15,590 bases of DNA from assembly GCA_016176845.1 (NCBI GenBank), contig JACOWJ010000044.1, positions 1 through 15,590 of the forward strand, read 5' to 3'. Source of the stretch: Nitrospinota bacterium. GTDB lineage: Bacteria > 2-12-FULL-45-22 > JACOWJ01. Within the stretch, counting starts at the first letter, position 1, and the number at the start of each line of letters is the position of its first letter. Shown here one piece after another: positions 1-15,590 of this stretch. The notes under the pieces were generated by a model. That model searched no databases, was not told the DNA's origin, and saw only the letters and a program-made list of their open reading frames with translations. Made by a program: the position numbers and the translations under genes.

Positions 1-979
1 AGCCGAGAACATCGGGGTTGATCTCGTTGTCTGCCCGTAAGGGGCGCTCGTCGAGATGCCATTGATACTGGTCGAAGAAGTCGAACAGTTTCTCAAAGGC
101 GGCATCCGCGATGCGAATCTTCTCCCCAAACATTTCTTCGACCTGATGGCGCAGGAAGAGACCGCCGTTCAGGTAGGGCACCTTCCCAAGGAGCCGGTTG
201 GTGGCCGCCGGGCGCTCGCCCTCTTTCTTCGCAAAGCCCTCGAAGAAGAGCGGGCAGAGGAAATCGGCATAGAACCGGTCCTGGCCGCGCTGCTGGCTTT
301 GTGCCAGCCGGTTCCGCAGGTAGTTTGGATCACTATCGAGGAAGCCTTTCTTCTGAATGAAGTAGATGAACATCAGGCGGTTGATCATCACCGAGGCGTA
401 CCAGCGCTGCATCTCCTCATCGGGAACGCCCTGAAGGAACCTCAGGAAGGCCGCATGCTCGGCCTTGAAGCGGTCGTAGAAACGCCGGGTCACCCGCTCC
501 ACGTCGAAAGCGGCGCGGGCGCGGCGGGTTACGTCCATGAGGGAAAGTGCTTCTTCCTCTACGAGGCTGAAGGCAATAGCTTGAAGCTTCTGAATCAGGG
601 CATCGCCGGGCTGATGGCGATGGCAGGTATGCTCCCGGCAGGCCGTGGGCCAGCCCGCTTCGCGTTTGACCCACTGCCAGATTTGCAGGGTCTTGCCCGC
701 ATCGGTGTAGAGGATGAGGTGCTCGTGGACCGACCGCGCGACCTGCCGTTCGATCTTGCGCCGCATGGCGTAATCGGGAATGCGACCCTCGCCCGATGGG
801 ACGCAGGCAAAGGCGACCATCCCGCGCTTCTGGGCGATGGCGGCCAGCGTGAAGGTCTGGCCGTCTATAGAAACTTCCAGGTTGGCCGATGGATGATCCC
901 AGCCCAGCTCTTCGATGAAAAGAGGCCTGAAATCCAACTCCTGGAGGTATCGCCGGACACGGGTGACATCGAGAAGCAT
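1..979 (-). CDS. Eco57I/PglX-like DNA methyltransferase, N-terminal part (cut by window edge)
   Basis: The minus strand is open from an ATG at 979 to the left edge, giving 326 whole codons that begin MLLDVTRVRRYL. Visible segments are an N-terminal alpha/beta region with many Arg/His residues (IPDYAMRRKIERQVARSVHEH, about residues 67-87), a helical stretch with YASVMINRLMFIYFIQKKGF (about 190-209), and the end motif LRADNEINPDVLG. These are typical of the N-terminal half of large Eco57I-type or PglX-like adenine methyltransferases, in which the SAM-binding and NPPY catalytic motifs come later; those lie outside the window and were not seen. The start follows the helicase stop by only 3 nt, so the two genes are almost certainly translated from one message. 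Family members often exceed 1000 residues, so more than half is probably missing. Modification alone, a type IIG fusion, or a BREX/DISARM-type methylase are all possible. Confidence 0.8.
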   Translation of the reverse strand, partial: MLLDVTRVRRYLQELDFRPLFIEELGWDHPSANLEVSIDGQTFTLAAIAQKRGMVAFACVPSGEGRIPDYAMRRKIERQVARSVHEHLILYTDAGKTLQIWQWVKREAGWPTACREHTCHRHQPGDALIQKLQAIAFSLVEEEALSLMDVTRRARAAFDVERVTRRFYDRFKAEHAAFLRFLQGVPDEEMQRWYASVMINRLMFIYFIQKKGFLDSDPNYLRNRLAQSQQRGQDRFYADFLCPLFFEGFAKKEGERPAATNRLLGKVPYLNGGLFLRHQVEEMFGEKIRIADAAFEKLFDFFDQYQWHLDERPLRADNEINPDVLG

Positions 980-982
980 CGA

Positions 983-3900
983 CTACTTTTCCCCCTGGAT
1001 CGCGGACAGTCCCATGGAACAGAGGATGCGTGGCTCCTGCGCCTGCTCTTCCTCGTGGATAAGGCAGAGGCGGTCCTCGTCGCGCAGGGCGATGACCAGT
1101 TGGGCGAGCGTCTCGTCGGAGATGCCGCTGCGCAATTGCCGATTGAGGGGTTCCACTGCCGATGGACGCAGAGGATAGCGATAGATCTCGTCGATGGCCT
1201 TGAGCAGCTCTTGCGGGGCAAAGAGGGGGCCTTTGACCTCCTCCGCGTACCGTTTGAGCCGCTCGTAGGTGCGGAAGCGCGCGCCCGAAGGGCGCCCCAG
1301 TTGGCCGCCGACGGACTTTTCCTCCTCCACGATGAGCTCGACCCCCCGCTGCACCAGGGCGTGGTGATCCTCGATGCGCGGCAGGGCGGGCGTATCAGGC
1401 AGGCATTCGGCGGCCTTGAGAATGGCGACCTGAGACTCGGTGACGCTCCGGCCATCCTGATCGATCCACGCCAGCGCGTCGTTACCCTCGGCGGTGCGCA
1501 GGTAGACCAGTACCCCTTCCGGCTCCTGATCGCTGGGCCGGTGGGCCCGCGTGGAGTAGACGACGGGCGGCAGCTCGGGAACGATCTTCTGCAGGCCGGG
1601 GTCGGCGGTAATGGCGTTCTTCCAAATCTGGTAGGCGTAAGAGGCCAGGTCCACTTCCGTGTCGGCCTCCCCGTCAAGGATGCCCGACTTCTCATGATAG
1701 AGATCAAGCACTGTCTGGTCGTTGCGGTCGTCCTCGAAGAAGGCCTCATCCGTGCCCACCACCTCCGCGTTCTCGCTCAGGCGCTGACGCACACGCTCTC
1801 GCAGGCGGATGATGCGCTCCACACCGTCGGCGGGCAGGAAGGAGTAGCAGAGGATCTCTTCGGCCTGCTGTCCGATGCGGTCCACACGCCCCGCGCGCTG
1901 GACCAGGCGGATGATCGCCCACGGCAGGTCGTAGTTGACGACGATGGAGCCGTCTTGCAGGTTTTGCCCTTCGCTGAGGACATCCGTTGCCACGAGGACG
2001 CGGAGCTCCTCTTCGGGCGGGATCTGGCCGCGCTTTTCGTTGCTTACGGGGCTGAACCGCCAGGCCAGGGCGGTCGGATCGGGCGAGTCGCCCGTAACGC
2101 CCGCGAGCCTGGAGAAGCCGCGCGCTTTGAGCTGGGCCTCCAGATAGCGCACGGTGTCGGCAAACTGAGTGAAAATGATGACCTTCTCGTTCGGGTGGTT
2201 CTCCGTCAACAGGTCGAGGAGTGCCCCAAGTTTAACATCCCTGCTGGCGTCCCAAGGACCGCACTTTTGCAGAATTTTGAGCAAGGCGTCGACGTCACTG
2301 CGCAGATCTTCCGCCAATGTCTTGACGAACAGGGCGGGACGCAGCCATTTGAAGCGGTGTTGGTGTTGGCTGGCATATTCCGCATAGATCTCGGCGGCGC
2401 GACGCTTGAGGCCCATCTCAAAATCTCCTTTAGGGCACTCTTTACCTGGATCAATCTGAGAAAAGGAGATGTCTGGGGATAGACCGTTAAAATCCTCGTC
2501 GGTGCGCAACGCAGCTGTCTCCGCGAGCACGCGATCATCGTTATTATCGTTATTATCGTCGTCAAACAGCTCCGCCGTGACGCCGACCGCATCGGCATCC
2601 TCGTCGTAGGTGCGGGTATCCAGCAACCCGGCATCTTGCGCGCCGATCGGGAGCGATTTCCCCTGTTCGATGGCATGGAGGAAGATGGTATTGCGCAGGA
2701 TGTGGCGCTCGATGGATTGGAGGAAGGCCTGCCCGCTGCTTTCCAGCCGCTTGAAAAGATTGGTGCGGCAGAAGCCCATCAACCGCTTGCCGGCGCGTCT
2801 GGCCTCGGCCGGCGTCGGTGGCTCGTGCGGCGCGGCGGCGACGTAGTTTCCCAGGCCATAGCGGGGCAGGTTGAGCGCGTTGAGGGTATCCACGACCTCC
2901 GGTGTATAGAGCCGCGCATACGGGTCCTGGGGGTTGGTATCATCGATGCTGAACTTTACGGTCTTCGGCAGACGTGTGGGAAAGTAGGATCGCGTGCCAT
3001 CCTCGAAGGTCAGGAACTTGCGCCCGGTGGCAGGGTCGGCCTCAGCGTAGTTGTCCTGAATGAAACCGCGCGTGCGCCGCACCATGTAGAGGCGCATGAG
3101 ATCGCGCCAATCATCGGCATATTCGCTCTTTTCAAACGCCGCGAGCGAACGAACGGGACATTGGTGGCGCCGGATGAACTCGGTCTCGCCCAATGTGCGC
3201 AACAATCGCTCAGGTCGGACACCCAGGTCTTTGTCCTCCGGAACGAAGAGGCGTAGCTGGCTGGAAAGGTCGAGATAGGTCTTGTTGTAAGGTGTGGCAG
3301 ACAGCAGGATGCATTTGCTCTCGTTCTCCTGGACGTACTCTTGAATCGCCCGGTAGCGCTTCCCTTCGCGGTTGCGGAGGTTGTGACTCTCATCGATCAG
3401 GACGATGCGGTATCGCCGCAGATGGGGCAATTCTTGGATGACCCGACTGATAGAGAGCACCCGCGCGCGCAGGCGATATTGTTCCCGGTAGCTCTCCCAC
3501 ATCTTGACCAGGTTCTTCGGACAGAGGATCAACGTCTCGAGCCCGTAATCGTCCTCGAAGATGCGCGCCAGCGCGGTGGCCATCAGCGTCTTGCCCAGAC
3601 CCACCACGTCACCGATCAGCACGCCGCCGCGCCGGTTGAGATGGTGCGCGGCAATCTTAACCGCCGCCGTCTGGAATTCGAAGAGCTTCTGGCCGAAGTC
3701 GCGCGGGATGCGAAACTCCGAAAGGCCCGCACGGGCCTCCTGGGAGAGGTGATACGCCATCTTCACGTAGATGTGGTAAGGGGGGATCCGCTCCTCGCGC
3801 GCCCAGCTCTCTTCGATGATGCGCACCAGTTCATCCGAGATGTCCAGGCACCACCGGTCGTTCCACCGCTCTTCAAACCACCGGGCCAGCTTTTGGCAGG

Positions 3901-4447
3901 CGTCGTAGTCGAGCACATCCACGTTCAATTCGCCTTGCTGCGAAAGGCCTGCAAGCGTCAGGTTGCTGCTACCGAGGTAGCCGACAATGGGATTGATAGG
4001 GTCGGGACGAAAGAGCAGATAGAGCTTCGCGTGCAGCGGGTGGCGCAGGAAGAGCTGGACGATGACCTTCCTGGCCCGGATCTGGGCGGCCAGGCGGCGC
4101 AGGCCGGCCTCGTCCTCATTGGTGGGAACGCCGAGGGTCAACTGATTGCGGAAATCTTCGGCCAATTTTCGCTTGAGGCGCAGCGCGGTCTGGTTGTCTA
4201 TGCCGTCGTCCCGTTTGGCAAGGCTCATGGCCGCGCGCAGTTCTTCCTGCGGCAGTCTTTGCATGCCCACGAGCAGACGGCAACAGTGACCGTCGCCACC
4301 GGCCCATGGCTCGATATATGGGCCAAGCTGTTTCCAGCCGCGTAGATTGAAGTAACCCACGCAGAAGTCGGCGCGGTTCGCCACCTCAAGGGTTTTTCGC
4401 AGCGTGGGGAGGAGTAGTTGCTCGATGTTGTCGAAGATGCGGGGCAT
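983..4447 (-). CDS. PLD-like nuclease domain fused to SNF2-family helicase (defence-type)
   Basis: This 1154-residue protein has an N-terminal phospholipase-D-like domain (roughly 1-200) with one HxK motif (H139, K141) followed by GSSNLT (159-164). An SNF2/superfamily 2 ATPase follows: Walker A GDVVGLGKT (279-287), the DESH box (352-355), SAT (384-386), motif V around ATDVLSEGQ (820-828) and motif VI QRAGRVDRIGQ (850-860). A single HKD half-site suggests dimeric nuclease or DNA-end binding, as in other PLD proteins. An acidic/Asn-rich linker (629-638) sits in the large insert between the two helicase lobes. It is the first gene of a minus-strand operon with the methyltransferase. The start at 4447 has AAGG 8 nt upstream and a good promoter at 4506-4534. 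Helicase plus methylase pairs of this kind occur in restriction-modification-like defence islands, and DISARM class 1 (drmD-drmMI) has a similar order. I do not assign a specific system because the neighbours are off-window. Confidence 0.9.
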   Translation of the reverse strand: MPRIFDNIEQLLLPTLRKTLEVANRADFCVGYFNLRGWKQLGPYIEPWAGGDGHCCRLLVGMQRLPQEELRAAMSLAKRDDGIDNQTALRLKRKLAEDFRNQLTLGVPTNEDEAGLRRLAAQIRARKVIVQLFLRHPLHAKLYLLFRPDPINPIVGYLGSSNLTLAGLSQQGELNVDVLDYDACQKLARWFEERWNDRWCLDISDELVRIIEESWAREERIPPYHIYVKMAYHLSQEARAGLSEFRIPRDFGQKLFEFQTAAVKIAAHHLNRRGGVLIGDVVGLGKTLMATALARIFEDDYGLETLILCPKNLVKMWESYREQYRLRARVLSISRVIQELPHLRRYRIVLIDESHNLRNREGKRYRAIQEYVQENESKCILLSATPYNKTYLDLSSQLRLFVPEDKDLGVRPERLLRTLGETEFIRRHQCPVRSLAAFEKSEYADDWRDLMRLYMVRRTRGFIQDNYAEADPATGRKFLTFEDGTRSYFPTRLPKTVKFSIDDTNPQDPYARLYTPEVVDTLNALNLPRYGLGNYVAAAPHEPPTPAEARRAGKRLMGFCRTNLFKRLESSGQAFLQSIERHILRNTIFLHAIEQGKSLPIGAQDAGLLDTRTYDEDADAVGVTAELFDDDNNDNNDDRVLAETAALRTDEDFNGLSPDISFSQIDPGKECPKGDFEMGLKRRAAEIYAEYASQHQHRFKWLRPALFVKTLAEDLRSDVDALLKILQKCGPWDASRDVKLGALLDLLTENHPNEKVIIFTQFADTVRYLEAQLKARGFSRLAGVTGDSPDPTALAWRFSPVSNEKRGQIPPEEELRVLVATDVLSEGQNLQDGSIVVNYDLPWAIIRLVQRAGRVDRIGQQAEEILCYSFLPADGVERIIRLRERVRQRLSENAEVVGTDEAFFEDDRNDQTVLDLYHEKSGILDGEADTEVDLASYAYQIWKNAITADPGLQKIVPELPPVVYSTRAHRPSDQEPEGVLVYLRTAEGNDALAWIDQDGRSVTESQVAILKAAECLPDTPALPRIEDHHALVQRGVELIVEEEKSVGGQLGRPSGARFRTYERLKRYAEEVKGPLFAPQELLKAIDEIYRYPLRPSAVEPLNRQLRSGISDETLAQLVIALRDEDRLCLIHEEEQAQEPRILCSMGLSAIQGEK

Positions 4448-15002: not shown

Positions 15003-15352
15003 AAAGGATAATGTTCGCGACGAAGATCCACCGAGCCAGAGTCACCGAGGCCAATCTGGACTACGAGGGAAGCATTACCGTGGATGTGGAGCTGCTTGAG
15101 GCGGCAGGCATCCTGACCTATGAGCAGGTTCATATTTACAATATCAGCAATGGTCAGCGGTTCGAGACTTATGCCCTCGATGGGGAGAGAGGCTCGGGGG
15201 TGATCTGTCTCAACGGGGCCGCTGCCCGGTGCGTGGTGGTGGGAGACCTGATCATCATTGCTACCTATCGGATGGTCAACGAGAAGGAGGCCCTGAACTG
15301 GATGCCCACGGTGGTGAAGGTGGACGCGAATAACCGGATCCAGAGAGTCTAA
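14999..15352 (+). CDS. panD: Aspartate 1-decarboxylase precursor
   Basis: This pyruvoyl enzyme makes beta-alanine for PanC. The 117-residue proenzyme has the self-cleavage site in YEGSIT, Gly24-Ser25, where Ser25 becomes the pyruvoyl group. K9 and R54 regions are intact, and [19 protein letters not shown] is typical. The correct start is the ATG at 14999, overlapping the panC stop (ATGA); an upstream in-frame start at 14975 would lie inside panC and add residues not found in the family. Being encoded next to PanC fits direct supply of beta-alanine. Confidence 0.97.
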
Positions 15353-15357
15353 CTGTT

Positions 15358-15425
15358 TATCCGGAAACTCCTCTTGCTCCTCTGCTTTTTCGGTCCGAGG
15401 AGGTATGCTTGGAGGTTTTCGGATA
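15358..15425 (+). repeat. Long imperfect hairpin after panD
   Basis: TATCCGGAAACTCC (15358-15371) pairs imperfectly with GGAGGTTTTCGGATA (15411-15425), and CTCCTC/GAGGAG (15377-15382 with 15397-15402) pairs inside. It could end the pan transcript, but no T-run follows on the plus strand. Alternatively it may belong to the left end of the element that holds the adjacent structured RNA. Confidence 0.5.
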
Positions 15426-15439
15426 GGCTCTAATATTAC

Positions 15440-15590
15440 AGCGCAAAGTTGCCCGTAACCGCTGATGTATAGCGGTTTAGCAGTCACCCCGGGGGGCCGG
15501 GAACCGAAGGAGTCATGAGGACCCCCGGTGAGACCCTTTGCGGATCTGGTATACTTCTCTGCAACTTTATGAAAGGAGGAGTATACCGAT
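15440..15590 (+). ncRNA. Structured RNA upstream of an off-window gene; HEARO / IscB omega-RNA candidate
   Basis: An outer stem CGCAAAG/CTTTGCG (15442-15448 with 15536-15542) encloses AACCGCT/AGCGGTT (15457-15463 with 15471-15477). It also encloses a CACC+GGGGG / CCCCC+GGTG stem (15485-15488 and 15491-15495 with 15522-15530), whose loop holds CCGAAGGAGTCATGAGGA. AAAGTTGC (15445-15452) can instead pair with GCAACTTT (15561-15568). A last stem GGTATACT/AGTATACC (15548-15555 with 15580-15587) holds the Shine-Dalgarno AAAGGAGG in its loop, and a start codon probably falls at 15589. The order of stems and the AGTCATGAGG and CCCTTTGCGGA words resemble, from memory, HEARO RNAs, the omega-RNAs encoded directly upstream of IscB/IsrB HNH nucleases. 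I am fairly sure it is structured RNA and only moderately sure of the class. A weak promoter (TTGGAG 15409, TAATAT 15431) would start transcription close to the first stem. Confidence 0.5.

Follow-up and report, generated by a model that had tools for sequence, protein, structure and literature searches.

The window analysed here is an entire contig (C32, 15,590 bp) of a metagenome-assembled genome (MAG) whose assembly amounts to 1.53 Mb and is 68%-complete. On its minus strand, positions 2-4447 hold a PLD/SNF2-type helicase (983-4447) and a type IIG restriction-methyltransferase that the contig edge truncates, leaving its start (2-979), a pair that is likely a defence or restriction locus. 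Near the opposite end, panD, recognised by an Asp_decarbox profile match, ends at 15352, and an 84-bp palindromic genomic repeat (TTATCCGGAAACTCCTC...GGAGGTTTTCGGATAGGCTCTAA) occupies 15350-15433 of the plus strand. A query containing this repeat gave 27 other matches in the same genome at 71-96% identity, most of them spanning 15350-15433; the copies include C37:20155-20238, C49:31094-31177, C56:67798-67883, C28:17280-17363 and C1:4678-4763. Its ends read TTAAC.GTCTATCCGGAAA and TTTTCGGATAGGCTCTAA, and it is perhaps a MITE or REP-like element. A mir-1822 match at 15354-15431 was set aside as a chance match to the palindromic repeat. The preliminary description had suggested, on condition of a HEARO-type RNA, that roughly 16 nt of supposed pan-operon flank ahead of the fold would be the guide. 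Since 15350-15433 is a genomic repeat with about 27 further matches, this flank does not belong to the pan operon; the bases in question are the end of the repeat, and a 16-nt guide finds no support.

What follows the repeat is, in our reading, the left end of a transposable element sitting in the repeat's last bases. A transposon family known mainly from Chloroflexi MAGs has TATTACAGCGCAAAGTT as its terminal inverted repeat. When 84,980 genomes were scanned with the query TAATATTACNGCGCAAAGTT, 23 loci were returned, most of them in Chloroflexi MAGs, and 13 of these are short copies that finish in a right end CYTTGCGCTGTAAT(A/G) and are flanked on both sides by an identical 4-bp NTAA duplication. 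From the ends and duplications of these short relatives, the first base of the element is 15434 and the target duplication is CTAA at 15430-15433 (plus strand), presumably its left copy; the left CTAA is present at this locus and the right end falls outside the contig. Elsewhere in this genome, the 84-bp repeat also carries the CTAA in copies that have no insertion. The left terminal inverted repeat, TATTACAGCGCAAAGTTG (15434-15451, plus strand), is identical in full-length IS701 copies (L077/L113, L079/L114 and L082/L112) and in MITE-like copies, and its TA(T/C)TACA(A/G)C pattern is also seen in distant IS701 copies, which begin with CTAG followed directly by TA(T/C)TACAAC (CTAG and then TATTACAACGAGA). 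Exact 4-bp target duplications are on record for the IS701 family in an earlier survey (PMC2266710). The TTAC at 15436-15439, once regarded as the target tetranucleotide of an IS200/IS605-type insertion, is part of the terminal repeat TATTACAGCGCAAAG, and the terminal repeat, the NTAA duplication and the reading frame of the relatives all identify an IS701-family DDE element instead. With the terminal repeat recognised, we also dropped a retron, an integron attC site and an IS110 bridge-RNA as candidates, along with the idea, based on a likeness, that TAATATTAC is the nick site of a small circular DNA virus.

Similar ends occur elsewhere in the genome and beyond. Bases from the element start recur at C5:387-411, with the terminal repeat at C5:391-411, where a degraded terminal-repeat copy (L016, 391-488) with an 11-bp inverted repeat (AGCGCAAAGTT/AACTTTGCGCT) supplies the last codons and stop of a minus-strand Na+/H+ exchanger reading frame. 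On contig C31, a sequence resembling the terminal repeat, with a single mismatch (TAATATTACATCGCAAAG), occupies positions 1501-1518 (L148); it precedes what appears by eye to be the beginning of a tyrosine recombinase, and a tRNA-like sequence comes after. The Chloroflexi MAG DBS2-1.bin85 contains many non-autonomous copies of 113 or 173 nt with perfect NTAA duplications (L072, L074, L075, L081, L084 and L090-L094); a search of that MAG for a close IS701 transposase found none. That the contig ends within the element is in keeping with repetitive DNA.

The class of the element can be read from its full-length relatives, three elements that each carry two locus labels (L082 is L112, L077 is L113 and L079 is L114). 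In all three an open reading frame begins 101-103 nt after the left end and contains a DDE_5 domain (E 1e-34 to 1e-58), and the two proteins scanned against the NCBIfam IS701 transposase model NF033540 scored 362 and 345 bits. The stop codon of the L082 and L079 frames falls within the right terminal repeat (NLAL and stop, AACCTTGCGCTGTAA). The window shares with the IS701 family (NF033540, DDE_5/PF13546; PMC2266710) the TA(T/C)TACA(A/G)C terminal repeat, and its presumed left CTAA fits the NTAA/CTAG type of 4-bp duplication; in the relatives a frame also starts shortly after the left end. It differs in a leader that exceeds theirs by about 50 nt and has two additional hairpins, and the transposase would fall past the contig edge. 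That a transposase gene follows position 15590 is therefore presumed, since the contig stops there. Searching this 68%-complete genome for a matching transposase found none; DDE_5 matched a single short fragment there, at the end of contig C38, and by eye this appears to belong to another subfamily.

The tail of the window resembles the leaders of these relatives in layout. A Shine-Dalgarno sequence, AAAGGAGG, lies at 15572-15579 on the plus strand ahead of a presumed transposase ATG at 15589 that continues past the contig. A promoter scan of 15340-15590 predicted one site only, with 0.0 expected in shuffled sequence and judged by consensus match alone: a -35-like GTGAGA (15528-15533), a 16-nt spacer and an extended -10 box, TGGTATACT (15547-15555), on the plus strand. 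The -10 region and the Shine-Dalgarno are paired with each other in a hairpin at 15548-15587 of the plus strand, formed by GGTATACTTCTCT (15548-15560) and GGAGGAGTATACC (15575-15587; 12 nt, 92% complementary). This 13-bp hairpin is the strongest part of the fold (z -3.2, 1 of 300 shuffles). The earlier proposal that the ribosome site sits in a hairpin was right as to the hairpin, not as to the loop, for the Shine-Dalgarno lies mostly within the 3' arm. The leaders of L112-L114 likewise end in a hairpin with a TGGTA box, at the corresponding place, in the 5' arm and the Shine-Dalgarno and ATG in the 3' arm, so that the start codon itself is paired in these three; the window matches their order (TGGTATACT...GGAGGAGTATACCGAT). 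The hairpin is significant in all four sequences (z -3.2 to -4.7, 0-1 of 300 shuffles), and their consensus, drawn from four sequences only, contains three pairs changed on both sides and still paired. The likeness of the tail to the relatives is modest at the level of sequence: it aligns with the L113 leader as TGGTA..CTTCT....TGAAAGGAG..GAGT.TACC (18 of 2000 shuffles equally good) and with L114 (44 of 2000), and with L112 there was no significant alignment. Ten more distant IS701 leaders (L121, L122, L124-L126, L158-L160, L162 and L163) showed no clear hairpin, and the general claim that all IS701 leaders hide their ribosome site was not upheld when tested on them.

The RNA fold as a whole is significant, with its significance unevenly spread. 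The stretch 15420-15590 folds at -60.9 kcal/mol (z -2.3, 3 of 200 shuffles equally good) and the 157 nt from 15434 to 15590 reach z -3.5 (1 of 300), with a longest perfect stem of 14 bp against a shuffle mean of 8.8, a length attained by 1 of 300 shuffles. With the last hairpin removed, 15434-15547 is unremarkable (z -1.7, 18 of 300 equally good), and most of the fold significance thus sits in the 15548-15560/15575-15587 hairpin. The folded RNA of the preliminary description is confirmed in part. In the minimum free energy (MFE) fold, the stretch ahead of that hairpin forms a long-range helix P1 (15442-15448 with 15536-15542, spanning 15442-15542 of the plus strand) that encloses P2 (15457-15477) and P3 (15483-15534); the P1-P3 stretch corresponds to the roughly 50 nt by which the leader exceeds the 101-103 nt of its relatives. 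Neither this genome nor the searches for DNA relatives yielded a relative with P2 or P3, and searching plasmids, phages and viral contigs for DNA related to the leader gave nothing useful. The competition between helices proposed for 15445-15448 exists as sequence: AAAGTTGC (15445-15452) is a perfect 8-nt complement of GCAACTTT (15561-15568) and shares AAAG (15445-15448) with P1. The predicted ensemble nevertheless uses P1 and not this alternative, and within 150 nt a complement of 8 nt is no rarity.

We consider it most likely that this is an ordinary insertion-sequence end. More specifically, we assign a probability of about 0.8 to the reading that an IS701-family insertion sequence landed in the CTAA behind panD and that its left end occupies 15434-15590. 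The preliminary description was correct in placing a mobile element there, with structured RNA ahead of a presumed reading frame. Its further suggestion, that this RNA is an omega RNA (HEARO, RF02033) of an IscB/IsrB element with a guide drawn from the flank, is favoured by the position of a structured RNA, about 150 nt long, between the left boundary of a mobile element and a presumed frame, and by TTAC at that boundary. Yet cmscan against Rfam gave no HEARO match at the gathering threshold or, with lax filters on 15330-15590, at E<=10, and neither sequence nor structure matches. Searches for HEARO and for the RRXRR domain covered this genome and 144 others and gave clear matches in G048 and G128 only; both features are absent here, although the same searches recover both in those two genomes. 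Aligned true copies begin GUCA and are unlike the window in sequence and layout, and the same left end is elsewhere followed by IS701 transposases, with all relatives having this different transposase class. We regard a HEARO here as extremely improbable. An L20 ribosomal-protein leader (L20-Deltaproteobacteria, RF03126) of an infC-rpmI-rplT operon, which deserves no more credence, matches over 15495-15578 with 20.1 bits (E 0.064), where the gathering threshold of 42.8 is more than twice as high. This match is disrupted by the better-supported hairpin, the genome's rplT operon lies with thrS, infC and pheST inside contig C4, and no L20 leader was found around thrS there.

The main rival to the IS701 reading is a MITE-like defective short copy at 15434-15542, with the hairpin and ribosome site belonging to an unrelated next gene; it takes this place because the genome yielded no fitting transposase. 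Relatives of 103-173 nt with such ends do exist, and CTTTGCG at 15536-15542 mirrors GCGCAAAG, in the manner of the degraded copy at C5:394-488. Where the right end CTTTGCGCTGTAATA would be expected, however, the sequence is CTTTGCGGATCTGG, a second CTAA does not follow, and the tail is like IS701 leaders in both sequence and fold, so that we think this alternative unlikely. A ligand-sensing riboswitch, in which AAAGTTGC, the 5' side of P1, would re-pair with the loop sequence GCAACTTT of the ribosome-site hairpin, would draw on two mutually exclusive pairings and on the three-way junction that P1-P3 form in the MFE fold. It seems to us scarcely plausible, given that no Rfam family attains threshold with cmscan, that the fold of 15434-15547 is unremarkable (z -1.7), and that P2 and P3 are common to no relative. 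It is only marginally less doubtful that the surplus P1-P3 is a regulatory RNA module acquired by the insertion sequence, with the AAAGTTGC/GCAACTTT pairing as its means of switching the ribosome-site hairpin.

If the IS701 reading is right, how might the leader hairpin serve the element? The terminal inverted repeat would be bound by the transposase, by analogy with the family. RNA reading through from the pan operon would contain both arms of the hairpin and fold, and its ribosome site would be hidden. Because the extended -10 box sits in the 5' arm, the native transcript is expected to start at about 15561 without that arm; RNA beginning at 15561-15563 would leave the ribosome site freer. 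Folding predictions give the Shine-Dalgarno a mean unpaired probability of 0.29 for all transcripts that begin upstream of the hairpin and of 0.50-0.58 for starts at 15561-15563, a partial release only; the hairpin energy, -18.9 kcal/mol in the former, is about -1 to -2 kcal/mol in the latter. Transposase would thereby be kept low wherever the insertion site is a transcribed operon. We favour this role in read-through protection, with moderate confidence and on the strength of modelling. In IS10 and IS50, transcripts from outside, and no others, form a hairpin that covers the ribosome site and so protects against external transcription. The window would resemble them in its predicted native start inside or after the 5' arm and in a ribosome site predicted to be paired in long transcripts; it differs in belonging to another IS family and in being a predicted case, built on folding and promoter prediction. 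A further comparison, for its site in a palindromic repeat and its structured leader, is ISPpu9 of Pseudomonas putida: transposase expression of this insertion sequence, located in repetitive extragenic palindromes, is affected by 5'-UTR structure and, as a point of difference, also regulated by two small RNAs (PMC8450116). In the literature searched we found no report of this kind of control for IS701.

The analysis disposes of what had seemed to be a new guide RNA of the IscB type, and the window illustrates cleanly that, at the edge of a contig, the end of an insertion sequence can look like a riboswitch or a guide RNA. For the IS701 family itself, the promoter box that overlaps the anti-Shine-Dalgarno arm in four leaders is a small, testable point.
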